Program-made: the position numbers and the translations under genes
Shown: positions 16,015 to 57,400 of the stretch, in pieces
Layout of the letters: every line of letters begins with the position of its first letter
Numbering within the stretch: position 1 is the first letter of the stretch
From: Xanthostigma xanthostigma
Lineage: Eukaryota > Arthropoda > Insecta > Raphidioptera > Raphidiidae
NCBI GenBank assembly: GCA_963575645.1
Contig: OY754464.1
Location: forward strand, 71,212,948-71,276,947
Direction: 5' to 3'
DNA: 64,000 bases
The notes under the pieces: generated by a model
Seen by the model: only the letters and a program-made list of their open reading frames with translations
Told to the model about the DNA's origin: nothing
The model's database searches: none

Positions 16015-17961
16015 CAGTGGCAGATTTACACATTTCCCAAGTATTGGCTTTTAAATTCTTGCCGCCCTTGCCTCTACAATTGTCAGTTCCTAGATTATTT
16101 TAACAATCCAACAATTTGGTTGAAATTATACATAAAAAATAGTTTTTGGGTATAATCCAATCAACCTGCGAAAGCTCAATGTTAAATTTAAAAAATAAAA
16201 AATTTAAAAAATACGTTGTTGTAGAATAAAATAATCCAAAAAACATAGCGTTTTTATTTTTCGGAAAATCAATGGTTAAGTTAACCTAAAAAATTCGCAA
16301 AAGTCCGAAAAACGCTTTTTTCGCGTTAAAAAAGGAAGTAGATCTCTAATGCAAAAAAGTTAAATTACAGAGTTGTAGATCTTAAAAATACCTATCGATT
16401 GACGCGCGTTCAGTCCAATTCGGTTGCGTAGGTGCTGAGAAAACTTGGAAAAACCATCGAAAATAGTCGTTTTTAAATTTGTGAATAACTTTTTTTCTTT
16501 TGTGATTTTAAAGTTGATATTTAGTGAAATTATGTGTTATAGGTTCACAAATCTTCAATTTTTTTTTTAGCAAAAAATTTTGCATATTTTTCGAAATATC
16601 GCATGTTTTCGAAAAAAAACATCTTTCGTAAAAACATCCGTGTTGGTCAGGAAATTATGCTAGAGCAACTTTTCAAGGCTCAATCACTTCTTCTAGACTT
16701 ATTCTATCATACAATTTTTGCAGCAAATAAAATATGTCAATTTTTGATGCCCAAAACAGGCTCCGAAAAAAGTGCTTTTTTTCGGGTTGCGTTTTTCGAG
16801 ATTTTTTACCGGATTTTCGTAAAAACACGTATGATACCAACGAAAATGCATTGTACTGATTTTTCTACGAATTAAAAAAAAAAAATTACCCTACGACCAT
16901 CTGGAGTCAAGTTCGTTTTTTTTTTGACAAAATTCCCTAAGCGACGGTTAAACTCTTAGAGGTTTGAAACTTGCACACGTTACTAATAAATACTTACTTT
17001 GCATTAAAAAAAATATTCACAATTGTTATCTTTAGCGGAACAACGGCTATGATCCCGTTAAAGTTGAGTGTTTCTACGCGTCGCGCATCGACTGCCTATA
17101 CTGGGATGTACATAATGATAATTGTGAGGTAACCATGGTATTTCAATTTCGAAAAACGCAACTCGAAAAAAAGCACTTTTTTTGGAGCCTGTTTTGGGCA
17201 TCAAAAATTGACATATTTTATTTGCTGCAAAAATTGTATGATAGAATAAGTCTAGAAGAAGTGATTGAGCCTTGAAAAGTTGCTCTAGCATAATTTCCTG
17301 ACCAACAGCGATGTTTTTACGAAAGGTGTTTTTTTTCAAAAACATGCGATATTTCGAAAAATTTGCAAAATTTTTTGCTAAAAAAAAACTGAAGATTTGT
17401 GAACCTATCATAATTTCACCAAATATCAACTTTGAAATCACAAAAGAAAAAAAGTTATTCACAAATTTAAAAACGACTATTTTCGATGGTTTTTCCAAGT
17501 TTTCTCAGCACCTACGCATCCGAATTGGACTGAACGCGCGTCTATCGATAGGTTTTTTTAAGATCTACAACTCTGTAATTTAACTTTTTTGTATTAGAGA
17601 TCTACTTCTTTTTTTAACGCGAAAAAAGCGTTTTTTGGACTTTTGCGAATTTTTTAGGTTAACTTAACCATTGATTTGCCGAAAAATAAAAACGCTATGT
17701 TTTTTGGATTATTTTACTCTACAACAACGTATTTTTTGTTTACTAATAACACTTATGTCATCCGTTTTGTAGATTGATTTTACTAGTATATTTCTGAGCT
17801 AATCAGAGCTTAATCATATACGAAAAATAAGGCGGGGTAATGTATGTCACTTACACAATAATGTACATTCGGTAAACGTAATAAAATAATCTTTATTTGC
17901 CGCCCCTAAAATTTTCCACCCTAGGCTTAAGCCTACTTAGCCTGCCGGTAGATCCGCCAAA
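16015..17961. mobile_element. hAT-type element carrying a giant foldback
   Basis: ATCAGGAG occurs at 16007-16014 and 17962-17969 as an exact 8-bp duplication. The ends CAGTGGCAGATTTA and GGTAGATCCGCC, with subterminal GCCGCCC, resemble the elements at 11973 and 14083. About 80 percent of the element is the foldback described separately. No transposase. Confidence 0.75.
16204..17737. repeat. Large inverted repeat, about 600-bp arms
   Basis: Arms 16204-16803 and 17145-17737 are near-complementary throughout, for example GATGCCCAAAACAGGCTCCG at left and its complement at right, separated by about 340 bp. Open frames at 16603-16875 and 17058-17498 are the two arms read in opposite directions (both contain MLEQLFKAQSLLLDLFYHTI), so I do not call genes. 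Confidence 0.85.
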
Positions 17962-18318: not shown

Positions 18319-18920
18319 TCTATACTAATATATAAAGCTGAAGAGTTTGTTTGTTTGTTTGAACGCGCTAATCTCAGAAACTACTGGTTCAAAATTAAAT
18401 TTTTTTTTGGATAGCCCATTTATCGAGGAAGGCTATAGGCTATATAAAATCAGGCTACGACCATTAGGAGCGGAGCATTAATGTTGCAAAATGTATCTCA
18501 AAAATAAACTTCTATTCCGGTGAAATGCACTAACTAAATATACTCATATTAGCGTTGCCAGAATACAACGCCGGCTAGCTCAATCGGTAGAGCACACGAC
18601 TATCAATATCAGGGTCGTGGGTTCGAGCCCTACGTTGGGCGAGTATATTTTTATTTTTTTTTTTTATTTTCTACATTGCTTTCTTCTAAGACTTACATTT
18701 AAATTTATTTTAATTTTATTTATTAATTAAAAAAAAATATTAGTTAAAAAAAGTATAAATACTGCTTTTTATCGACAAAAACTTTTGAACGGTAACTCCG
18801 ATCATCATGAAATTTGGACACAACATTCATCTCGGTAAACTAAGATGAATGTGTGTACTCATGTTCCTCCCTTCCCCATTCGTTCTTTTACACCCGGGTG
18901 AAAACGAGCGGGACCGCTAG
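18319..18920 (+). mobile_element. Non-autonomous Helitron A carrying a tRNA-Lys-derived unit
   Basis: Starts TCTATACTAATATATAAAGC after A and ends GGGACCGCTAG before T, the Helitron A|T target rule, with a CCCGG ... hairpin just inside the 3' end. The body matches Helitrons B, C and D (GGATAGCCCATTTATCGAGG). No Rep/helicase is present. Confidence 0.85.
18570..18641 (+). tRNA. tRNA-Lys-derived sequence in Helitron A (decayed)
   Basis: Retains box A TAGCTCAATCGGTAGAGC and box B GGTTCGAGCCC, and the 3' acceptor half GTTGGGC. The anticodon loop has changed to CTATCAA and one acceptor base is lost, so it is unlikely to be a working tRNA-Lys. A T run follows within 12 bp, as expected of a Pol III terminator. 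Confidence 0.6.
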
Positions 18921-18995
18921 TGTTTGATATTTTGAGGACAATACAAGTACAAAACAAATTTTCGTAGTTTAGTCAATGAGTGCTCATAAGGGGCA

Positions 18996-20163
18996 TCTAG
19001 ATGGAAAAGTCGAAAGCAGAACATTTGACTTAGGAACTTTGTTTGGACTAGTTAGGAGATAAACATACTAAAAGTCCTTGCCCCTCTGAGGTACGCCCGA
19101 AGGGGGGGAGCACAAAGAAGGTCCCGTTTTTTGGTTTTTTGCTTTCATCTCGAAAACGGTACGTCGTACGAAATTTTGTTGGAATACATAATGAAAGCTG
19201 ATAAAATTCTCTACAACTTTAGTTTTCACACTTTTTATCTATCTCCAATCTTTGCCTAGCTATGAGCTCCGAAAAATGGTCGATTTTCAAAAATGTGTTA
19301 AATTCTCTGTAGCACATTGTAACAATACGAATTTGTCAAAATCATTTCGTATCGCTCATCCAAACTATTAAAAACACCCACACACTATTAAAAAATAACA
19401 TAAGCTTTAACCTATTGAAGACCCTGGGCACATTAGGATTATGGGGCCCTTATGACCTTAACAGAGCACTATTTTGTTAGAATAGACAAAGAAAATAGAT
19501 AAACAAGGTTCTAGATTCTAAGTCGAGGAATGTGATATAAAATGCATATATTTAAAAGGATCACGTTCCCAATTTTAACATGAAGGACACAAAAAAAATA
19601 AGTATATGAAAAATAGTTCACTGATGATTTTTGTTTAAAACAGTTTAGGTACTTAGTATACCATTAAACTAGGGGGTCCCTATCGATCGCGGGGCCCTGG
19701 GCACGTGCCAGAGTGCCCAGTGGGAAAGAGGGCCCTGTGTGGAGGTACTCCCAGCTTATGTTATTTTTTAATAGTGTGTGGGTGTTTTTAATAGTGTGGA
19801 TGAGCGATACGAAATGATTTTGACAAATTCGTATTGTTACAATGTGCTACAGAGAATTTAACACATTTTTGAAAATCGACCATTTTTCGGAGCTCATAGC
19901 TAGGCAAAGATTGGAGATAGATAAAAAGTGTGAAAACTAAAGTTGTAGAGAATTTTATCAGCTTTCATTATGTATTCCAACAAAATTTCGTACGACGTAC
20001 TGTTTTCGAGATGAAAGCAAAATACCAAAAAACGGGACCTTCTTTGTGCTCCCCCCCTTCGGGCGTACCTCGGAGGGGTAAGGACTTTTAGTATGTTTAT
20101 CTCCTAACTAGTCCAAACAAAGTTCCTAAGTCAAATGTTCTGCTTTCGACTTTTCCATCTAGA
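18996..20163. repeat. Foldback element with two 411-bp arms
   Basis: Left arm 18996-19406 begins TCTAGATGGAAAAGTCG and right arm 19753-20163 ends with its complement. The arms are nearly identical and the same length. The 346-bp spacer contains GGCCCTGGGCAC-type sequence whose first part recurs inverted at 47870-47965. No open frame spans it. Confidence 0.88.
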
Positions 20164-20699
20164 ATTATTCGTTGCCTAAGCTAGTAGTACAGTTTTTTAT
20201 TGTAAAAGATCAGGTTTCAATATACTAGTACGAAATAATGAATATTCCAATTTTATACTTGAAGTGGGAGAAACCTTGTAAAAATGGCCCAGAGCATTCC
20301 CCCGGGAAATATGTTTGTAAATAAATTTTATATTATCAATTACAGTTAATGTAAACATCAACTTTAATTAAAATTAGTTAAAAACTTTTTTATAATATAC
20401 CTTCTATTAGTAGGAGAGCTATCAAACATTTTTGGGTAAGTATTTGAGGCAGTGTGAAAATTTGTGTAACACTTCTTTTGTAATGTCTGAACACAATACC
20501 GAAGACCTGACCGAAGGGTAGTGGAGCTTAATCAAGACGTGAATTTTTAACTTTACGAAATTTTATTTGATAAAATTATACGGGATACAAAGCTAAAATA
20601 TTAAAACAATTTTTATTTATGACGCAAATTTTGCATAATAGTAGGTACTATACAACACCAAACTAGTTTTTAAGTTTATTATTTTATATTATTATTAGT

Positions 20700-20835
20700 T
20701 GTATTTCTTACAACTATATAATATTAAATTTTTAATTATATGTAACACATAACTACTGTATTCTCCGGACTTACCCTATGTCGGTATAGACAAATTGGGA
20801 AAAATAAATTATTATTATTATTATTATTATTACTC
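20700..20835 (+). mobile_element. LINE 3' UTR and ATT-repeat tail
   Basis: TATGTCGGTATAGACAAATT followed by AAATAAATTATT and a perfect ATT microsatellite (about 20812-20832), the usual end of insect CR1-type LINE copies. No coding part remains. Confidence 0.45.
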
Positions 20836-21115
20836 GAACATTATTTATTGGTCCACTTTTCGGCAATATTTTTTGCCTTCTTCAGGACCTATAACAAATA
20901 AATGAGACCCTACACATCTAAACCATAAACTTAAATTTTTTTAAGTATAGATTTTTAAGGTAAGCCTAATAAGTAATTATTTGATATACAAATATTTTAA
21001 AAATTTTAAGTTTATGGTTTAGATGTGTAGGGTATTATTTATTTGTTATAAGTCCTGAAGAAACAAAGAAATATTGCCGAAACGTTGACCAATAAATAAT
21101 GTTCTAGTGAATAAA
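20826..21115. mobile_element. Palindromic repeat with head-to-head hammerhead motifs
   Basis: Minus arm: CTGAAGA (complement of 20879-20885), stem GGCAA/TTGCC, GAAA (complement of 20858-20861). Plus arm: CTGAAGA 21055-21061, GAAAC 21079-21083, then GTT|GACC, with stem I GGTC/GACC. The plus arm has lost half of stem II; the minus arm has a changed base after GAAA. Arms share ACATTATTTATTGGTC and its complement. Confidence 0.7.
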
Positions 21116-21239
21116 AATTGTTTTAATATTTTGGCTTTGTATCCCATATAATTTTATCATATAATATCAAGGTGTCTTATTTTGTAGAAAAGAAACGAAA
21201 CGGTTGATTTATGAGTCAAATTTGTTTATTGTAGGAAGA

Positions 21240-21282
21240 CTACGTTTCGACACCTGTTTTGGTGTCTTCCTCAGGTCTATAA
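21240..21282 (-). ncRNA. Hammerhead ribozyme motif, Penelope 3' region
   Basis: Read on the minus strand: stem I GAC, core CUGAGGA (complement of 21268-21274), stem II GACACC/GGUGUC with a 6-nt loop, GAAAC (complement of 21244-21248), then GUA with GUC closing stem I. All invariant positions fit CUGANGA...GAAA...NUH. Stem III is only the palindromic ACGU, as in Penelope hammerheads thought to act as dimers. Confidence 0.7.
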
Positions 21283-21528
21283 GAAAATAAATAATTAATA
21301 CATATAATAGTTAAAACTTAATTATACATTAGTAATAAAACATAATCAAATATACCTTTAATTAATTGACATTACTTGACCATAACATCACAAAATCTAA
21401 TTCATACTTTACTGAAATTTAACAACGATCGCAATAAACTTGATCTAAGTATTACATTCTTTTAAAACATTATAATTATGACATAATATAGAACTAGACT
21501 GCAGATAATACCAACATTAAATAGTTAT

Positions 21529-22551
21529 TTAATTTACACCATTACTTAGTTCATCAGTTTTTTTTAAATTTGTGATAAGAGAGAAGTAGGTTTTTGCCAA
21601 TTTATTAGCATCATCTTTTATGTTAATACGATTTTTTTGCAAATTAATGTGGAGCATTTCTGAAAAGATGCGTCGATGCCAATTAGGTTCATTATCTAAT
21701 ATGTCAATATTATCGAAATCAAACTTATGTTTATAATTCAAAATGTGATTCAAAATAACAGAAGAACTGGTATTTCCTAATCTTCTACAAAGTCTTTGGT
21801 GTTCAGAAATACGTACACTAACTTGGCGTTTGGTTTCACCTACATATGAAGCATCACAATCACAACAATTAATTCTATATACCACATTGTTAAGTTTGCA
21901 TTTTTCAGTCTTGTCTTTTCCTCTTTTTATAATACTAGAATAGTTCTTAATAACCGGTATGGTTTTAATATGATATTTTTTAAGCTTTTTTGATATGATG
22001 TCATAAATTTTATTTAAAAATGGAATGCGTATGTAAATAGGGCGTTTGTCATTTTCATTAATAGGAACCAATGAATTACCAATTTTATTACCCTGATCAT
22101 TACAGTTGGTGGTGTTATTAATAGAGTTGACTTTAGTAAATAGTCTCTTTTTAATATGAAATTTAATGAATTTTTCTGGATAATCATTAAGTAAAAGACA
22201 ATTATGAACTAATTGTAAATTTTTTTCCCAAAAACATGGGTGTGAAAGAAGTAGAACTTTATCAACCAGAGAATAGACAATACCTCTCTTTTGAGTAATA
22301 GGATGATCAGAATTAAAATTTAAATATCTATGTGAAGAAGGAGGTTTATGAAACCAATCAGTAATGACTCTATTATCTTGTATAATAATCGTCATATCTA
22401 GGAAACTAAGTTTATTATCCGTTTGAATTTCATATGTGAATTTGAGTCTATTATCGTAATTGTTAAAAACCTCCAACATTTCTTGGATTTTGTCTTTAGG
22501 AATAATAGTAAAAATATGTCTTATTTTGTTAACAAGAAATTTTATTTGCAA
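21529..22551 (-). pseudogene. Penelope-like reverse transcriptase C-terminus plus GIY-YIG endonuclease
   Basis: Residues 1-60 include KLSFLDMTIIIQDNRV, the strand after the RT catalytic motif. The middle (TDWFHKPPSSHRYLNFNSDH) is the RT thumb of Penelope elements. Near residues 225-290 lies VYRINCCDCDASYVGETKRQ with downstream Arg, HQ and Asn positions, the GIY-YIG nuclease that cuts the target for priming. The C-terminal tail is LNINLQKN-like. The frame is intact for 340 codons but lacks the N-terminal fingers and palm, so it cannot be autonomous. Confidence 0.85.
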
Positions 22552-22711
22552 AAAAGTTCTTTATGAAAGATATCTTCAGGGCGATACCACATATAATTTA
22601 CTTAAATCGGTTCAGCGTTTTTTTTAATATATTTATTTACTTTCGTAGTTTTTATTTGTTTTTATTATATATCTGTTTTCTAGAGCATACTTTCAGAGGA
22701 GTCCCAGAAAA

Positions 22712-22718
<7 letters not shown>

Positions 22719-22742
<24 letters not shown>
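22719..22742. repeat. (TA)n microsatellite
   Basis: About 12 uninterrupted TA units. Confidence 0.95.
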
Positions 22743-22959
22743 CTTCCAGTTTTAAGTTTAGTATTCCACTAAAAAATAAAAAAATTAAAAAAAAAAAATT
22801 GAACCTCCTTCAAAAAAACCACTGACAAGTGTATAAAATTTTGAGGTAGCCGTCACTTTCGTAAGAGTCGATGTGTACAAAGTTTTAGTAATTAATGTAT
22901 GAGTATAATCTCTCTATAAAGTTTTAAATATGGAAAATTCTTGGAAACAATAGACTTCC

Positions 22960-23035
22960 AATGCAGTGCATTTATTTAATACATTTTATTTGCCAACGTT
23001 TCGACTTGGATCCAACTTTTTCAAGGCGTTAAAAA
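22960..23035 (-). repeat. Degenerate Penelope/hammerhead fragment
   Basis: The complement reads GCC, a mutated core TTGAAAA, a stem with GGATCC, then GTCGAAACGTT|GGC. Stem I is kept but two core bases differ, so the ribozyme is likely inactive. Confidence 0.45.
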
Positions 23036-23275
23036 CTATTTAAAAACTACAAACTCGCAACTTAACAAAACTAAAATAACAATAACAACTTGACAATAGC
23101 GTACAAGTGACAAAGGCAACGAGCGATCACGGCCAATCACCGACGAGCGCACGTTCCGTGCAGGTAGCTGGGAGGTGGTAGGAGTCTTAACGACTCTAAA
23201 ATGTGCCTTTCGATGCTGTTTGTGACTAACTTCCGAACATTTTAGATCCGTGGCGCGTATTATACACTAAAGTCA
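23036..23275 (+). repeat. Dispersed repeat, partner at 62082-62312
   Basis: Shares long identical blocks with 62082-62312, such as GATCACGGCCAATCACCGAC and GAGCGCACGTTCCGTGCAGG, and ends GATCCGTGGCGC. Each copy has private insertions. No coding potential; class unknown. Confidence 0.75.
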
Positions 23276-23874
23276 ATTTTTAGTAATTAAATTTGCGTTG
23301 ACCGCAAAACTGTATTGTTTTTCTCTTTTTATTAGTGGCATTTTGGAAGGAGGATGATCTTTTTAGAGTATACCTTATTGCTTCTCTATGACATCAAAAC
23401 CATTTAATATTCGCGTTGAAATGTCACAGAGATATGTAAAATGGATATTAGGTGACTACAGGCTTAAATTTCTACAGAGATTCATCTAAATAATCGTTAC
23501 ATTAATAAAATGCCAAGAACACAACTCAGGCTATTTATAAATATTAAATATATCGATTTAATTGGCCCGAAAATTCGTGCCAACATAATTCTAACATAAA
23601 CAGTTCAAGTTACGCCCACCGTGTAATGTTTTCTTATTGTTAAAATGAACAGTCAGTGGCACCTCGTTAAATAATGAACGCGTGGGCTAAGATTTTACAT
23701 GTTAATTTATCTGGCTCTCTGTTACACAACATTTATTCGTAAATTAAAATACCATGTTTATTTGTGTCGACAAAGAAAACAATTGCTAGTCTGAACTGCG
23801 CGAGCCAATTGCCAAATAGTGCAGAAAAGGGAGGAAGAAAAAGTTCGTGCATATATTCCATCTCAATACGTAAA

Positions 23875-24225
23875 TCTGAGGGTTAATCCCGGCGGGGGCA
23901 GATGTGGCTGGAACTTTTTCCTGCTACCTCTCGCCGAGAAACGATAATCCTTGTATGGGCCATCATGTTGAGGTTTTTTATGGTTTCCTTCAATAATTCC
24001 AGATAAATATCAAGATGGTTCCTTATTCAAGGCCATGGCCGATTACCTGTCATACTCCTATGCTCAAAAATTGCCTACCTTATCCCAAGATCCTAAAATT
24101 CCTTCAATCGCCCATTGTTATTAAAGTGGAATTTTAAAAATGTAGAAAATTACGGAATAGATGGAAAATAGTAATGGTGTGAATAGCGCCTGTTATGACA
24201 TAAAGTCAAGAAACGGACGTTAAAC
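23875..24225 (+). mobile_element. tRNA-derived SINE, copy 3 (5' truncated)
   Basis: Starts inside the SINE at ATCCCGGCGGGGGCAGATG, lacks boxes A and B, and runs to the tail TATGACATAAAGTCAAGAAA. It abuts the Helitron at 24231. Confidence 0.7.
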
Positions 24226-24230
24226 CATTA

Positions 24231-24635
24231 TCTATATATATAAAATTCTCGTGTCACAATTTTGGCCGCGCTAATCTCCGAAAACACTAAACCAATTTTA
24301 ATGAAATTTTGTAGATGTGTCATTCTTGGTGCAACTTACGCTATAGGTTAGTACCTATTTATTAAATTTTGTTTACAAAATTAGGGTATTTTCTCAAAAA
24401 AACTGTTTTAGTAACATGTAGCGACATCTGATAGAATTGTCTCAAAGCTATTAGCTCAGAAGCAAACATAAAACTGTTTTAGTAACAAGTAGCGACATCT
24501 GATTGAAATCGCGCAAAGTTATTAGTTCAGAAGCAAATCTATTAGTTCAGACGCCGGGCCGCAAACAAAATACCTACATTTTGAGAATTGTATTTGTATC
24601 TATCGTACCCGGGTGAAACCAGGACGAACCGCTAG
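24231..24635 (+). mobile_element. Non-autonomous Helitron, second family
   Basis: A|TCTATATATATAAAATTCTC at the 5' end and CGAACCGCTAG|T at the 3' end, with CCCGGGTGAAACC hairpin sequence before the terminus. The body contains tandem-like GTAGCGACATCTGAT blocks. A truncated inverted relative is at 52865-53062. Confidence 0.85.
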
Positions 24636-25084
24636 TTATTATTATATATTATTATATTTTAATTTGTTAACCTTCTAAAATGTGCTTCCTAAGTCCTATG
24701 CCTTAAGTTAGGAATAATTTTGAAATGAAACTGGTTATGTGAATTTATTATACGAAAAACGATTGAAGGTTAAAATTATATGGAACGCCTTTGCCTGTCA
24801 TATTGTATTAAAATTAAGTTTCATGTAAAGTTCAAACCAATTGCCCACGCAATGAAAGGTCGCGTAATGAGTTATGCAATCGCGTAAGTAACAAAGATCA
24901 CGTGCAAGTTTCGGTAACACAATGTCTGATCCGATATCACCACGTCTTGTGCAGTACTTAAACACTAACATAATTTATTATTTATTATTTCTATCTCATT
25001 ATTATTCATCTGACTTGAAATTATGCCTTCTTTAACCCGTCAAAGGTTCGTTGATTTTCGCAAGTCTGGACGTCGGTAGAATTG

Positions 25085-25880
25085 ATGATAATAATAATAA
25101 ATTCCTTTAACTCCTAAGTGGAGCATAGGGCCTCTACGAAATTTTTAAATCTAGTCCTATCTTTAGCCATATGTTTGACTTGAAGCCAGGTAGTTCCTTG
25201 TTCCATAACTTCTTCACGAACAGTTCTTCTCCAGGATATTTTTGGTCTGCCTCTTTTTCGGTATCCCTGTGGGTTCCAATCCAAGGCTCTCTTTGCTATG
25301 TCGTCATCTGTCTTTCGTAGCGTGTGTCCTATCCAATTCCATTTTCTACGTTTTATAATTACACAGATTTGTTCAAGACATGCACGTTTCCAAAGTTCGT
25401 TGTTCGAGACGTGTTCATACCATTTCACCTTGAGGATTGTTCTGAGACATTTGTTTATGAAGATTTGCAGTTTAGTTGTTATGGCTTTCGTCACTTTCCA
25501 GGTTTCAGATCCATATAGAAGGACCGATTTTACATTTGAAAATACGCAACTTCGTTTTTTCAAAAATCATACTTGAATGCCAAATACGATTTAAACTTCC
25601 GAACGCTTGGGATGCTTTTTTGATTCTGCTGTCTATATCCATTTCTGCTCCTCCATCATTGCTAATTATACTGCCCAGATAACAAAATTCTTCCACTTCT
25701 TTAACAGGTATATCTTTTATTACCAACTGTTGACGACTCACCTTACCGATTTTCATAGCGACTTTCTTATCTATATTGATACGGAGACCTGCGACTTCTG
25801 CCTGTTCCACGAGGAGATCTATTTTTGCTTGCATATCCGCGCTATTATTTGCCAAATTGATGATAAGGAGGTGCAAAATG
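25085..25880 (-). mobile_element. RTE-like LINE, 3' fragment with frameshift
   Basis: One frame (25505-25876) reads EEFCYLGSIISNDGGAEMDI, an overlapping one (25114-25563) reads VLLYGSETWKVTKAI and then WIGHTLRK and KRGRPKISWRR, the adjacent C-terminal blocks of insect RTE-type reverse transcriptases. A frameshift lies near 25510-25560. A very short 3' UTR ending in an ATT/ATC repeat (25085-25102) also suits RTE. The catalytic palm is missing. Confidence 0.75.
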
Positions 25881-25885
25881 AACTT

Positions 25886-26595
25886 TTAGGAGTTTGAGGC
25901 GTTGAACGAAGATAATGAAACAAATCTGAAATTAAGTTTTTTTAATAGATTTTTATGACAAAATTGTCTGTAAAAAATCCAAAATCATTAGGAGATTTAT
26001 AAAGTTAAAAATTAAAAAATAACTTTACATGTAGTCTTATGGAAAATATGTCAACCTAGCATGCAAACGGTACATTTAATTTTTTTGCAAATAATTAATA
26101 ATGTCAGCAGTTCCGAAAACTAACTGGGTAAAGCATCGATGTCTTACAAATATATTAATATTTTTTTTCAATTTAATTTGGAGACTTTTAATCAATAAAA
26201 AAATTATTAAACCTTAGCAGTTTTCGATTATGGACTTTTATTCTTGACAATTTTAACTGAATTTTCAACTTTTTAATGATTTAATTTTAATTTTCATTAC
26301 TTCTAATTTCTTTTTTATTAATTATTTACTGCAAAATTATGTAAAATGCAGATATTTACATAAATTTATTTTTTCTAACCTAACTTTATACAAAAAATTC
26401 ATAAGTTAGTCCATTAAGTAAAATACTGAAATAATTAATAATAAAAAAATGATATTTATGCCTTTATGACAATAATTTATTGGTAACATCGACTTATATA
26501 ACCTTTTAAAAAAATGTATTCTGAAAAAGTTCCGATTTAGAATTCGATTGGGACTGTAACGAATCAACCTTCTTAAGCGCGTTAAGGAGGTATAT
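25886..26595. mobile_element. MITE family 3, copy 1
   Basis: About 700 bp colinear with 44611-45309. Blocks include AAAATCATTAGGAGATTTAT and CAGCAGTTCCGAAAACTAAC. The ends GTTTGAGGCGTTG and AATCAACCTTCTTAA are diverged forms of the TTAA-flanked ends of copy 2. It truncates the RTE-like LINE. Confidence 0.75.
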
Positions 26596-26692
26596 TTGAA
26601 TGAACCAGGCAAAAAGTGAAACGCTTCCCCTTCTTCGACTTCAAGGGATAATTGAGAGGAAAGAGGTGTCCCAGAACTAGGGTTGCCAGGCC

Positions 26693-27774
26693 CTAAAATA
26701 CAAAAGCCGGACTCGGCAATATATTAGGCCGGACATTTTGACCTAAAAGCCGGACAAACCTTTTTTAAAAGCCAAACATACCTTTTAATAGCCAAACATA
26801 TCTTTTTAAAGCCGGACATTACATTTATAATAAAAACAAACTCTATTAGGTTGAATTAAAGCTGTTTATTAATTATTATTTAATAATGAATCACAGTTTT
26901 GTTATAGAATTAACAATATTCAACAAACAGTCCTACCTACCAATCACAATTTGTATTTATGTTACGGTCAATGTCCGGAATCTGGGAAATGTCGACAATA
27001 CCCGGGCAATGCCCACATTAACCGGTAAATTTCGACAATGCCCGAGTCACATCGGGCAGTGTCCGAAATCGGACAAGGTTCTGAAATTTAATGCATTGAG
27101 ATATATTGTTTATTGCTCATATCATATAAAAAATATAATTATTTATATTAGTAATGCCTTTTTGTATTTTTTTATTCATTAAAATAAATAAAATGTGTGG
27201 AAATAAATTATACGTGGTTTCAATCATCAATAATTGTAATAGAAAGCTGAAAAATATATTCTTCAATAGTTGATATCAGTGATAAAAATTCCATAAAGGG
27301 TTAATGATAACTTATCATAATAAAGATACAATCAAATGTCAGCGTTTCATGTTTATAAAAAATCTATTTTTTGAACCTTGTCCGATTTTGGACATTGCCC
27401 GATGTGGCTCAGGCATTGTCGACATTGCCCGTATTCCGGACATTGACCGTAACACTTATACCTATGATATTGATGAAGTGAAAAATGTTTGTTCTTCTGT
27501 AGAGACTTTTAGTAGATATAAAATAAAAAAAAAAAAACAACAAACAAACCAACAAATATAGCTCTCTTTTAACTAACAGTTTTTGTTAACCAAATTAAAA
27601 ATTATCCATTTTTTTTTTTTGGATAGAAACAGAAATATCTTTATTAAAAATTTACAATTTCAAACTCTTGAAAACTATCAAAAAGTCTATAAGTAATTAA
27701 AAATACACAGATTAAAAGCCTAACAAAAGCCGGACAGACCGGACACGACCGTAAAAAGCCGGACTACTGGCAAC
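26693..27774. mobile_element. hAT-like element with nested palindrome
   Basis: Begins TAGGGTTGCCAGG and ends CTGGCAACCCTA, with repeated subterminal AAAGCCGGAC motifs on both sides. The 8-bp flanks do not clearly match, so the class is tentative. Confidence 0.55.
26957..27455. mobile_element. Palindromic MITE nested in the element at 26693
   Basis: GTTACGGTCAATGTCCGGAA at the left mirrors TTCCGGACATTGACCGTAAC at the right, and GACAATGCCCGAG/GGGCA motifs recur in both arms. The interior is AT-rich. Confidence 0.75.
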
Positions 27775-28355
27775 CCTACCTCCGACGGACGGCTTTTTTT
27801 AGTATTTTCTTATTAATTGAGACTATTATCAGTTCATTCTGAATGTTACAGAACTTTGCTCAGAAATTGTGAAATCGAGGTCTTTGCCGCGTAGGTTGGT
27901 ATCTCATTTTGTTTAGAAGCTATAACATTTAAATTTACTCAAAAATAATAATAAATGATATACGTGTCCACTGCAGGGTTAATATGTTTAAAATTATAAA
28001 TCATTTTTAAAATTTAATTTATTCGTACTAACATCGTATTCGTCACGCCTTTAAATTATTTATAATAAACTTTTCACGAATCCGGTTCACAATTTCCCAA
28101 TTTGGTTTATTTAAAAGAGTTGAATTAACTTTTAATATTCATTATAGAACAGTTCTAAACGTTACAAAATAGAAAGAGAGTTTTTTTTTACAAAAATTCG
28201 TGCTCTTTGCGTGATTGTAATTTAATCGGTCAATATAACGACTGGACCGATCTCTATTGCGAGTTAATACGATATACCTACTTTAAAGTGGATCCAGTAT
28301 ACTACTTATTTCAATTCAGAATAGAGTTTAAATGTAAAACGATTTACTTCGGTTA

Positions 28356-28804
28356 AGGCCTCTGCACACGAGGCTAGAAACGCTGCTAGATTCCTTGCTA
28401 GATTTGCCTACTAGCGCTGGTTTTCTTGATTGATGTTAAGTGCTCGCTTCACACGAGACTATTTTCCAAGCGTGTTTTGTGGATAGATTTGGTGCGCACG
28501 CAGTGACAGTTCGAATATAAACATTAAACACAGAGCAAAACGTGTCTGTTGTCTAGCAGAATGACGCTATGTGGGCGTTTGTGCAAATGCCCACGTGAAT
28601 ATACCTTCCTGATTGGTTCTTGCTCATATACCTAGCAACAAATCTAGCAGGGAAAATAGCCCCTGTTCTAATTGTAAAACCTATCTTCTGAGTTAGCAAG
28701 GCAGCCCGCAGTGACGTCATTTCCAGCTTCGTACCCAGCCTACCGACTAGCAGAACTCCTAGCAGCGTTTCTAGCAGTGTTTCTAGCCTCGTGTGCAGCG
28801 GCCT
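28356..28804. mobile_element. Harbinger-type MITE, intact copy
   Basis: TTA at 28353-28355 and 28805-28807 flank the ends AGGCCTCTGCACACGAGG and CTCGTGTGCAGCGGCCT. The interior carries repeated CTAGCAG and GCTAGATT blocks. Relatives: 8668-9344, 39799-40098 and 41870-42005. No transposase. Confidence 0.85.
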
Positions 28805-28856
28805 TTAGTTCGGCTATCACACTGAATATACTATTATACTATATAGTTAAACTATA

Positions 28857-29776
28857 CTAGCGGTCCCGCCCGGTTTCACCCGGGTGCAAAAGAACGAATG
28901 GGGAAAGAACGGACATGAGTACGCACATTCATCTTAGTTTAGCGAGATGAATGACGTGTCCAAAGTTTTTGCAGTTTTCGGCAGTTCCCTGCTTTGTTAC
29001 TTATTTTTAACTCAAACCTCCGTTTTTGATGAAAATATGTACATGTATGTGTCATCTACTGTCGAATAAATATAAATGTAAAGAGATGTATACTGCAAGC
29101 AGAATAAAAAACACAACTTTAACCGTTTATAGATGGCTCTAAATACTTTCACGTTTTGCTAAAAAATACAATGATAAAAAGCAGTATTTATACTTTTTTT
29201 AAGTAATAAATTTCTTTAATTGTAATTAATAAAATATAATAAATATTTAATTGAAAATACTGTAGGAAAATTATTTTTATATAGGTACCTATAGTTAACA
29301 GTTTTCAAATGAGCTATTAATTAGATTTATTTAATTTTTATTAGTCGTAAATAAAATCAAAATAAATTAATTTGTAAGCCTTAAAAGAAAGAAATGTAGA
29401 AAATAAAAAAAATAAAATAGAAATATATTCGCCCAACGTGGGGCTCGAACCCACGACCCTGAGATTAAGAGTCGCATGCTCTACCGACTGAGCTAGCCGC
29501 GCTTGTGAATGTACAACACTAATATTGAAATATTTAGTTAGGGCATTTCACCTGAATAGAAGCATATGACAGACAAATTTTGAGATACATTTTGCAACAT
29601 TTTTCATTGATGCTCCGCTCCTATTGGTCATAGCGTGATATTATATAGCCTATAGCCGTCCTCGATAAGTGGGCTATCCAACAAAAAATATTTTTTTCAA
29701 TTCGAACCAGTAGTTTTTGAAATTAGCGCGTTCAACCAAACAAACAATCTCTTCAGCTTTATATATTAGTAGTAGA
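28857..29776 (-). mobile_element. Non-autonomous Helitron B carrying tRNA-Lys
   Basis: Reverse orientation: A|CTAGCGGTCCC at the left is the complement of the 3' end, and the 5' end TC lies at 29775-29776, followed by T. The body matches copies A and C. It has extra sequence between tRNA and 3' end (29000-29150) absent from the others. Confidence 0.85.
29430..29502 (-). tRNA. tRNA-Lys(CTT)-like gene in Helitron B (best preserved)
   Basis: Seventy-three bases with the cloverleaf parts of tRNA-Lys: TAGCTCAGTCGGTAGAGC D-arm, loop CTCTTAA with anticodon CTT, and T-arm GTGGGTTCGAGCCCCAC. One acceptor mismatch and one anticodon-stem mismatch are visible. T runs follow on the minus strand. It may be transcribed; charging is unproven. 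Confidence 0.7.
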
Positions 29777-30263
29777 TTGTAGGTAACTAACGGACTTGCC
29801 TTTTTGCGAAATTCACAAAATCGCCTTAAGAAGTACTATTGTAAAAATCTATATGGACATATGCATTATGTATGCATGCATTTTTGCATTTTGTCTGGTA
29901 ATGTTGACATGAAACAATTGTGATAAAATAAAAATGATCAGTAGTACAATTACTTCTTACTATTGTTGATTACTCATTCGAATACTATCAGAATAAATAA
30001 TCATGTAGGAAGTCTAGTGTTACAATAATATGTGAATAAATTTGCATGTTGCTGCAACCATTTGGTAGCTGATTCACTGCACATAACAATCTCGAGGAAA
30101 TGTCAAACAATATTGGGTCACTAAATTTTGATCTCTTTAGTCTGCACGATGAAGAAATTGCATTTTGACGCAACTACAGGGCAAAACAAACACAAATGAA
30201 AGACGTTACGAAAATAGATAAACGGAAATATCACATTTTTTATTCTAATGCAAATTAATTATA

Positions 30264-30749
30264 CAGTGTAACCTCTTTATAACGAATCTCAAGGGACCGA
30301 GCATTTTTTTTCGTTATAATGAGTTTTCGTTATGTGGAGGTAAGAAAGAAAAATAACCAAATTTCGCTTAATTAATTTATTCCAAACTTTGCCTGACGTT
30401 TTTTGCTATGCGCGAATATTTGTTTTGTATTTTAATAAGTATCTTATGCATATATGTCTAGGGATGTGGTGGAATAATCTTCATTAAACAATAGAAATTT
30501 TTTGATAAGTTTGGCAACATCAAGTGCTTGTTGAATAGTTGGTGATGATTCAGAATCGTTCTCTTTACGTCTGTAAATATTTGCTGACGCCTAAATATGA
30601 ACATATTTCTTCGTAATAGAGAATGGCTGTTGCGCTATAAAGAGGGTATTAATGTATGGGTTTTAAGGTAAACCAACCAAATTGTAAAAATGTCGACGTT
30701 ATAGGGAGTTTTTCGTTATAACGAAGGACGTTATAAAGAGGTTAAACTG
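30264..30749. mobile_element. Pogo/Tigger-type MITE
   Basis: TA-flanked ends CAGTGTAACCTCTTTATAAC and GTTATAAAGAGGTTAAACTG, with a second CGTTATAA repeat further in on each side. Typical pogo-derived MITE ends; interior non-coding. Confidence 0.85.
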
Positions 30750-30812
30750 TAGTTGTCTGAAATTTCGAATATTTTTATTTAAAATGATTGTCTCGACGTC
30801 AGTATTTGTAAA

Positions 30813-31530
30813 TCTATACTAATATATAAAGCTGAAGAGTTTGTTTGGTTGGATGAACGCGCTAATCTCAGAAACTACTGGTTCGAACTGAAAAAAAAAA
30901 TGGTTTTGTTGGATAGCCCATTTATCGAGGAAGGCTATATAATATCACGCTACGACCAATTGGAGTGGAACATCAATGAAAAATGTTGTAAGATGTATCT
31001 CAAAATTAGTCCGTCCGACAAATATTATCAGGTGAAATGCCTTAACTAAATATTGCTATATTAGCGCCTCATGTTTACAAGCCCGGATAGCTCAGTCGTT
31101 AGAGCGTAAGACTCTTAATGCCAAGGTCTTGGGTTCAAGCCCCTCGTCGGCGAATATGTTTTAATTTTTTTTTTTCTACATTGCTTTCTTCTAAGGCTTA
31201 CATTTCAATTTTTTTAAATTTTATTACGACTAATTAAAATTAAATAAATCTAATTAATAGCTCATTTGAAAACTGTTACAGCTATAGGTGTACCTATATA
31301 AAAAAATTTTTTTTTTTTCAATTAAATATTTATTATATTAAGAAATTTATTACTTAAAAAAAGTATAAATACTGCTTTTTAACGACAAAATTTTTTGAAC
31401 GGTAACTCCGATCATTATGAAGTTTGGACACAACATTCATCTCGGTAAACTAAGATGAATGTACGTACTCATGTCCCTTCCTTCCCCATTCGTTCTTTTG
31501 CACCCGGGTGAAACCGGGCGGGACCGCTAG
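30813..31530 (+). mobile_element. Non-autonomous Helitron C carrying tRNA-Lys
   Basis: A|TCTATACTAATATATAAAGC and GGGACCGCTAG|T, with the hairpin CACCCGGGTGAAACCGGG before the end. Colinear with A and B. An open frame at 30849-31049 is repeat sequence only. Confidence 0.87.
31081..31152 (+). tRNA. tRNA-Lys(CTT)-derived sequence in Helitron C
   Basis: D-arm TAGCTCAGTCGTTAGAGC, loop CTCTTAA (anticodon CTT) and T-arm TTGGGTTCAAGCCCC. Several stem positions differ from copy B, and the acceptor 3' half is eroded to GTCGGCG. A T run follows. Confidence 0.62.
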
Positions 31531-54417: not shown

Positions 54418-57400
54418 GTACGTCTAGATCCATTTTATTGCCTAATCGAAATAGTATCGGGGTGTTTCGTAATCATGTGAAGTAATCTGATTCACTGTCG
54501 AAATTGTGACACCGCGAATAAGTACGAAATGTGATTTAATTTTATCTGGTGTCCATTTACGTATTTAATTAATTTTTTTAATTAAATAATTTTGGTAATC
54601 TAAAGAATTTATACCACTGAGATTTCAGAATAAAAACAACGGTTATCTTTTGAAAACTTACGCAGTTTGTTTCGTATAATGTTTAAATTCTTAAAATAAA
54701 CATTTCATAAGTTGCCATCTGGTATCGTCTTTATAAGTTTACAGTTTTTTTTTTTTTATATATTTATTATCTAAACGGTAATTAAAAAAAATAAGTTCAA
54801 AAACTAAAACCCAACTACTGAAAAATATAAAACAAGAAAATATTCTCATCTGAGGATAGCCGTGGTCATATGCCACCTACCCTAGCAAAACATTACATTT
54901 TAACAGTAGTAAGCGATCATAAGCTCTAGGGCAAAGTGCATCACGCTATACATCTATAGGAGCCTTATATATTATATGAGATGGCATACGACCACGGCTA
55001 TCCTCAGATGAGAGTATTATCTTGTTTCATACTTTTCAGTAGTCGGGTCTTGGTTTTTAAGCTTATTTTTTATTTAAATATTTTTTTTGTACTTATTTTT
55101 TGTTATCAATTTTCTCACCCCTGGGACCAGAATTCAAAAATAAATGTATAGCCTATGTTACCCGGGCCATAATAACGAATCGATTTACACCTTATTTATC
55201 AAAATCGGATGAATAGTTTAGGCGCTACAGTGGAACATCCGTAAATACAAACATACATAGACTGCTAAACTCATAACCCTTCGTTTTGGCTTCGCCGTAG
55301 TCAGGTAAAAATTATTCAAAAATACTTTTAGAAGCTCAACGTAACGGTTAAACTGTATTAACGGTGTCTGACAAGCAAAAATTCTATAGTTAATGAACAA
55401 GACATAATTTAATCAATGATCAAGTTTGTCAGCGGGTAAATTGCACAGTTCGGTCGTTAATAATATTCGCGTCTATTTTCATTCTTAAATCTATAAAGCT
55501 GAAGAGTTTGTTTGTTTGTTTGGTTGAACGCGCTAATCTCAGGAACTTTTTTTTGTTGGATAGTCCATTTATCGAGGAAGACTATAAGCTATATAATATC
55601 ACGCTACGACCAATTGAAGGGTACACGGGAAGAAGGCGGTTTGTCAAAAAATGTAAATTGTGCATCAGCAAGTAAATGGTACGATCTTAAACACTCAAAA
55701 TGCTCTCCTGCACAATTTACATTTTTTGACAAACCGCCTTCTTCCCGTGTATCCTTCAATTGGAGAAAATATAACTCAAAATTTGTCCGTCCGACAAAAA
55801 CTTTTGAACGGTACAACATTCATCTCGGTAAACTAAGATGAACGTGCGTCCTTCCCCACATTCGTTCTTTCGCACGGGCGGGACCACTAGTCTTAATATA
55901 TATCAGAAATCATATTAATATGTAACAACTTACATATAACTGCAATGTTTCATTTCCTCAGATTGTAGTCCTCCTCGCCGCTTTGGCTTGCGCCAACGCC
56001 GGTTACTTGGGTGCTCCAGCCGCCGTCTCATACGCTGCCCCGGCAGCTTATGCCGCACCACACGCTTATGCTGCCCAAGCTTACGCTGCGCCACACGCTT
56101 ATGCTGCCCCAGCTTATGCCGCATATGCCGCTCCAGCCATCAAGACCATCGCCGCACCAGCCGTAGCCTACTCTTCCGCCCCAGCTGTATCCTCGTCATA
56201 CTCAGTATCCAAAACCCTTCACCCGGCTCCAGTCGCTTATGCCGCACCAGCCGTCAAAGCCGTAAGCTACGCCGCACCAGCCGTCAGCTACGCCGCACCA
56301 GCTGTCAGCTACGCCGCACCAGCCGTCAGCTATGCTGCACCAGCAGCTTATGCCGCACCTGCCGTACACTATGCCGCACCAGCTGTTAAATACGCCGCAC
56401 CAGCCGTAGCCACCTACGCTGCCCACGCACCAGCTGTCGGTAAGAATTAGTATTTTTTTTATCACGCTTAGAAAAAAATACTCTTGAATTCTCTGTTGCC
56501 AAAATGACGAAGACGCGAAATATGCAACTTATTTTATTTGAGAGTTTAGTAATCTTTTCACACCAATTAAAGTTTTTAGTGCAGTCAAATATGATAATTT
56601 GACTCTTAAATTCTGATGCACTTGATTTCAATCCCATTATTAATGATTCAGGATATCATAATATAAATTTTATGCAGTAGGTTAAATTATTGTAAATCAT
56701 TAATTCAAGTCTGATTTCACACCATAATAAATCTGCTTGTAGAATAATTTCTGTAGATAAATAGTTTAAAATTTAAACTGATTTAATAAAAAAATTAAGA
56801 ATATTGTATTATACAATATACAATAATATATAATTTAAAACTCAATAGAACAATTTTTTCCACCATAAATTATTGTAGTACGTTTAGATAAACACTAAAT
56901 TTAATATTTTTTCACAAATCAGAAACATTTTCAAAGTACAAATTAATATATAGTTTAAGAAAAATAATTTTTAATGATTATCAGTTTACAAAAACACTAA
57001 CACAATTCATTTTAGTCAATTAAAAATTCAAAATCGAGTAAAAACTGGCAACTTATCACTCTTGTGTATACAAGACTCTTGGCTTTATTTTTTGCCTATC
57101 AGAGCTATTACGCAATCTTTGACTTTGGTATTATTTAATATACATTTGAGCACAGCGGTTATTTGTACTAAAGCATCGTTTACATCTTTAATCCACAAAT
57201 ATACATACGATATTATTAAAATTAAAAGAAGCTTGAAAGTGGATTTCATTTGTCTATACAACAATAGTGACCGTTCAAATAAATAGAATATTAACATACT
57301 CAGAGTCCGCACACTGTACAAGAATAAAGAACAACTAACCGTAAATTCGACGCTGGTGAATTTTAAGCAATTTTCTTCATTTATAAAACACAACATTCGA

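Follow-up and report, generated by a model that had tools for sequence, protein, structure and literature searches.

The 64,000-nucleotide stretch of Xanthostigma xanthostigma contig OY754464.1 analysed here (the window) holds four short non-autonomous Helitrons, E1 to E4. Three of them enclose, at one internal place, a segment derived from a lysine transfer RNA gene (tRNA-Lys); the fourth belongs to a tRNA-free sister family, in which a single exact junction stands where the others carry the tRNA (we call the two forms filled and empty). All four elements have ends of the form A/TC...CTAG/T, the slash marking the insertion joint, and their features are as follows.

18319–18920, forward strand: E1, a Helitron of the C1 subfamily, enclosing a tRNA-derived segment
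18570–18641, forward strand: tRNA-Lys-derived segment of E1, with a mismatched anticodon stem (Rfam tRNA 23.3 bits, under the 29-bit cut-off)
28857–29776, reverse strand: E2, a longer Helitron variant whose right arm holds an extra block at ~28968–29174
29430–29502, reverse strand: tRNA-Lys (CTT)-derived segment of E2, the best preserved of the window (ARAGORN call; Rfam 50.9 bits)
30813–31530, forward strand: E3, a Helitron of the C3 subfamily (pairwise alignment with E1 and E2)
31016–31022, forward strand: left CGACAAA direct repeat at the border of the E3 block (sequence reading and junction comparison)
31023–31382, forward strand: middle block of E3, comprising a leader, the tRNA, a T run and an AT-rich part, which the empty family lacks (comparison with empty copies)
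31081–31152, forward strand: tRNA-Lys-derived segment of E3, with the anticodon stem mismatched and the CTT loop kept (consensus of 30 copies)
31383–31389, forward strand: right CGACAAA direct repeat at the border of the E3 block (sequence reading and junction comparison)
55490–55890, forward strand: E4, a tRNA-free Helitron of the empty family, with an exact empty junction at 55785–55811
55610–55763, forward strand: an insert within E4 that has inverted repeats and resembles a miniature inverted-repeat transposable element (MITE), apparently with CAATTG on both sides (sequence reading and blastn)
55792–55798, forward strand: the single CGACAAA at the E4 empty junction (sequence reading)

The coordinates and termini of these elements, read from the sequence, agree with a preliminary description of the window, and TC and CTAG ends are present in 4/4 copies. 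In pairwise blastn comparisons the 5′ parts of E1, E2 and E3 are 77–82% identical (E 7e-93 to 9e-170) and their 3′ ends 89–94%; aligned in this way, the elements hold their tRNA-Lys-derived segments at the same internal place, as had been proposed. E4, described earlier as a copy without the tRNA, lacks the entire middle block of ~360 bp and has its own, separate inverted-repeat insert. The extra ~200-bp right-arm block of E2, perhaps a second acquisition, is crossed by several other long genome matches to that element.

Insertion joints were examined in 60 copies (L003–L062), of which the 45 with a match to the end patterns were kept and 15 dropped. A stands before TC in 43/45 and T after CTAG in 44/45, in keeping with the A-to-T insertion described earlier and contrary to the non-A–T sites that would have refuted it, and no common word flanks 36/45 copies, the pattern of A–T insertion without target duplication. 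Reading 20 flank-sampled loci (see below) whole, we found the 5′ end in 17, the 3′ end in 15 and both in 12. End-match cut-offs were set by eye (5′ score at least 18, 3′ score at least 13). On the 3′ side of CTAG, target positions +7 to +9 tend to read ATA (A 38, T 33 and A 33 of 45), a possible target preference besides the A–T joint itself.

Both families are dispersed through the 623-Mb assembly (28 contigs) in thousands of copies. Searches with E1, E3 and E2 gave 2849, 5750 and 5639 first-look candidates, respectively, the best 40 of which were scored; these comprise 39 other copies of E1 at 93–95% identity and 39 other copies of E3 at 88–92%. We read 30 E1-type, 30 E3-type and 20 E2-type loci, which as best matches are biased to well-kept copies. 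The resulting consensuses are 615 (C1, 30 copies), 732 (C3, 30 copies) and 749 (C2, 17 loci) long, with the tRNA beginning at positions 264, 274 and 263; C2 is built on fewer complete copies, with L085 and L095 ending at a CTAG within the tRNA and L089 shortened. As trimmed, 30/30 C1, 30/30 C3 and 15/17 C2 sequences contain tRNA-derived sequence, the two C2 sequences with a tRNA score under 20 being L085 and L095, which are trimmed within it.

A 25-mer directly 3′ of the tRNA has 6,925 genome matches at up to one mismatch (control 0). We sampled 60 of 100 listed places, all exact matches from the first ~11.6 Mb of assembly contig C1. The tRNA-derived sequence is present in every one (60/60; lowest local score 20, against a shuffled maximum of 14) and lies inside the conserved Helitron body throughout; tRNA copies outside the body, which would have spoken against the preliminary description, were not seen among these places. 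A few of the 60 copies are partly deleted. A second 25-mer, from the right arm common to both families, has 13,945 matches at up to one mismatch (control 0). Taking every fifth of 100 listed places (n = 20, first ~6.5 Mb of the same contig), we found the tRNA in 8, the empty form in 10, a block reduced to its 3′ part in one and another deletion in one.

A single block of ~360 bp separates the filled form from the empty one. The empty junction, GTCCGTCCGACAAAAACTTTTGAACGG, has 7,986 genome matches at up to three mismatches (control 0), and E4 matches this pattern exactly. It is present in 10/10 sampled empty copies and in 0/8 sampled filled copies, and is found in 0/77 of the filled best-match copies. 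Two further tRNA-free copies, found in sequence flanking fetched loci, line up with E4 at the identical position.

The three tRNA segments of the window do differ in decay, as the preliminary description noted; much of that decay is common to copies of the same subfamily and so was inherited from master copies. The decay of the E1 tRNA, for example, recurs nearly identically in the consensus of 30 C1 copies. Counted from the consensuses, 4 (C1), 2 (C2) and 3 (C3) of the five anticodon-stem pairs are mismatched, and none of the three has an intact cloverleaf with a Lys anticodon. The suggestion that the family spreads tRNA genes, taken as working genes, finds no support here. Of the window segments ARAGORN calls only that of E2, which alone passes the Rfam cut-off; the E3 segment has no Rfam tRNA match at E ≤ 1. 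Folds of the C1–C3 consensuses seemed to stabilise an alternative hairpin, in which the 5′ strand of the anticodon stem pairs with that of the T stem, a candidate that was dropped when hand-scoring gave ~7 changes that strengthen it and ~6 that weaken it.

Across the genome, ARAGORN called one of the 60 flank-sampled copies, as Asp, and none of 60 central C1/C3-type copies (L003–L062), the lone call there, in L033, belonging to E2 of the window. Better-kept lineages fare differently: 12/20 E2-type loci are called (5 Lys, 6 Asn, 1 undetermined), as are 15/20 of the best matches to the E2 tRNA (13 Lys-CTT, 1 Lys-TTT, 1 Asn; 20 fetched of 39 scored, the window's own aside). In all 20 of the latter, inner sequence of the Helitron adjoins the tRNA on one side or both. 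An Rfam tRNA search of the genome listed 29 matches, two of which (L120 and L121) fall within the inner part of the Helitron. Applied to 6,925 copies, the 1/60 rate would imply tRNA calls of the order of one hundred, the error being wide. The earlier expectation that tRNA-Lys counts would be inflated thus holds mainly for the better-kept lineages, judging by the ARAGORN rates of each sample; a minority of Helitron-borne copies may still fold as tRNA, and single ones may be functional genes.

Changes per site in the tRNA resemble those of the flanks: 0.024 versus 0.025 (left) and 0.018 (right) in C1, 0.041 versus 0.036 and 0.026 in C3, and 0.045 versus 0.052 and 0.053 in C2 (n = 14 for the last). 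We also built a tree of 163 copies, in which biased and flank samples are mixed, and compared internal changes (branches with at least five leaves) with the rest. The ratio of internal to copy-level changes is equal in tRNA and flanks (p = 0.83). The simplest reading of these sequence comparisons is that the tRNA is a passenger and not a working part of the element.

We consider it highly probable that a short Helitron captured a tRNA-Lys block once and was then amplified, with the tRNA as hitch-hiker. The ancestor would have been a non-autonomous element of about 345 bp, which acquired a ~360-bp block, made up of a tRNA-Lys gene and its flanks, at an internal CGACAAA. The likeliest route would be filler DNA inserted while a break inside the Helitron was being repaired. 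The enlarged element would then have become the master of thousands of copies, presumably through rolling-circle transposition driven by proteins acting in trans, and later masters would have carried tRNAs already damaged. The subfamilies have sequence in common to either side of the tRNA, which makes independent captures unlikely.

The direction of the change might instead be reversed, with the filled form ancestral and the empty family derived from a master copy that lost, by deletion, the sequence between its two CGACAAA repeats. C3 has CGACAAA on both borders of the block and the empty form has it once, so the direct repeat that deletion by slippage or recombination requires is there; with one junction in 10/20 sampled copies, a single deletion would be enough. 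Two observations lower the standing of this account. Empty copies look older, since they lie further from their own consensus (mean distance 8.6% in 10 copies versus 5.1% in 8 filled copies). And filled lineages other than C3 lack the clean repeat at the left joint, which reads GTCCGTCATATGCT in the E2 lineage (for example, L070 and L079) and has a shorter form in C1 and C2. Because the empty copies are more divergent and the left joint varies, gain of the block is favoured over its loss, and we regard deletion as unlikely. Less probable again is a tRNA-derived short interspersed element (SINE), or another transposon, nested in the ancestral Helitron with a 7-bp target duplication. The 7-nt direct repeats around the C3 block are what such an insertion would leave, but some 50–60 nt of the block precede the tRNA, the block end has no A-rich tail, no terminal inverted repeats were seen by eye at the block ends, and 0/20 fetched tRNA matches (the 20 that were checked) are free of Helitron sequence.

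A role for the tRNA as a working RNA polymerase III (Pol III) promoter that aided the spread of the Helitron, raised in the preliminary description, strikes us as improbable. Its appeal is that the C1 and C3 consensuses, despite their mismatched anticodon stems, have a readable A box (TAGCTCARTCGG) and B box (GGTTCRAGCCC), that a T run follows the tRNA, and that the boxes carry fewer internal changes (10 in 23 sites) than the remainder of the tRNA (36 in 50). Set against copy-level changes, however, the boxes are not significantly spared in the 163-copy tree (p = 0.30), and the right flank is lower still (16 in 48). One sampled lineage has TAGCGCAATCGG in its A box, and the tRNA-free family, counted at a different mismatch limit, is of the same order of abundance (7,986 versus 6,925). 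The comparison gives the promoter proposal no support, although weak constraint on the boxes may exist. Very improbable indeed is that the Helitron-borne tRNA is, or until recently was, a working tRNA-Lys(CTT) or a source of Pol III transcripts; were it so, a rolling-circle transposon would be redistributing tRNA genes and could have replaced the Lys-CTT genes of the host.

Several points weigh against capture followed by amplification. The clean 7-nt repeat occurs in the C3 lineage only, the others having GTCCGTCATATGCTTC or a shorter form at the left joint. The age difference comes from 10 versus 8 copies over 175 nt, a stretch that takes in a little host flank as well as differing sequence upstream of the arm. 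Both the flank and right-arm samples are drawn from the first part of a single contig and from places that match their 25-mers exactly. The predicted 3′ hairpin is not stabler than shuffled sequence in either element folded (CCCGG-loop-CCGGG in E3, z-score 0.01; a different fold in E1, z-score −0.32). Finally, a donor gene with flanks matching the block was not found in the genome by the patterns used, and four patterns, which do not amount to an exhaustive tRNA scan, revealed no intact Lys-CTT gene.

These donor patterns were built on the standard animal Lys-CTT core and stem-loop. The core has no exact genome match, and none of its seven one-mismatch places has both standard stem strands. 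When the stem places were left open, the pattern matched 109 times, with no perfect anticodon stem among the 100 matches listed; a shorter one gave 40, none with a perfect stem. The perfect standard anticodon stem-loop occurs once in the genome (L123, at C2:4642942, a position on an assembly contig), within a tRNA-like sequence whose acceptor is damaged and which ARAGORN does not call; blastn of the C1–C3 consensuses against it gives a match over the tRNA part and short AT-rich matches elsewhere. Lys-TTT genes are present in the genome, with anticodon and T stems unlike those of the block. Among the Helitron copies themselves, some keep TGAGA without its partner strand and others keep TCTCA with a changed first strand. 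An ancestor with both strands would be the standard animal tRNA-Lys(CTT), and on this simplest ancestor the donor was most likely a tRNA-Lys gene with anticodon CTT.

Helitrons carry pieces of protein-coding genes. Capture of a tRNA would be a variant of this known gene-fragment capture. The window elements resemble, by description, the insect non-autonomous Helitrons Hel-2 (PMC4344730) and Hel1 (PMC6544945), which are likewise short and non-coding, with TC and CTAG/CTRR ends and A/T flanks; tRNA is mentioned in neither main text. Hel1 also has a short core, alongside longer forms that have captured internal regions; filler DNA is the origin its authors prefer for these (PMC6544945). A comparable case for the cargo is an Arabidopsis tRNA-Cys cluster that overlaps annotated Helitrons, where the authors raised amplification by a Helitron and, in 2023, remarked that such involvement would be the first example of a Helitron capturing a non-coding RNA (PMC10701932). 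There, according to the same account, the units are tandem and none of three Helitron finders placed a reliable Helitron across the tRNAs. Both cases place tRNA genes within Helitron-annotated sequence; unlike the cluster as reported, the window family is dispersed, has defined ends that join A to T, and is paired with an empty sister family. No further Helitron-borne tRNA came up in the literature searched, judged by titles and the starts of abstracts.

In other sequence collections, a 17-mer had two matches among viral contigs, each over 18 bases only, and a 28-place pattern had none among the genome contigs of other organisms. E3 matched eight records of a phage collection over ~55–60 bases of its tRNA part, six of them annotated as tRNA-Lys. 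A filled and an empty family that meet at one exact junction provide a datable before-and-after pair for the capture of a non-coding RNA gene, and make the effect of an internal Pol III promoter on Helitron success testable.

tRNA-derived SINEs have a tRNA-derived segment with A and B boxes and occur in thousands of dispersed copies. The Helitron family shares all of these features, and the suggestion that it mimics a SINE stands to that extent. The mimicry is superficial: the tRNA is internal, ~270 bp into the element and behind the leader of the block, not a 5′ head, and the 3′ terminus is CTAG at an A–T joint, with neither an A-rich or LINE-like tail nor target duplications. Counts of tRNA genes, and repeat classes defined by tRNA, are open to inflation or misnaming by Helitrons. 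A second tRNA-like repeat, GTAGTGGTGAGAGCAC...GGTACCGGGTTCGAATCCCGGCGG, with common sequence after it, appears lower in the Rfam tRNA list (L115–L119, 39–45 bits) and is possibly a tRNA-derived SINE.

Prominin and Ig matches, together with a Cuticle_3 match below the cut-off, point to an arthropod genome, probably that of an insect. Elsewhere in the window, a 343-aa open frame at 21529–22560 (reverse strand) has no Pfam match above the cut-off and contains a GIY-YIG-like stretch, YVGETKRQVSVRISEHQ; it is perhaps a Penelope-like element. Two open reading frames on opposite strands at 16543–17504 give nearly one peptide (SKYRMF.KKN.FRKNI), which points to an inverted repeat. Between E2 and E3, the segment 30264–30749 has inverted ends (CAGTGTAACCTCTTTATAACG...) and by eye resembles a TA-flanked MITE.

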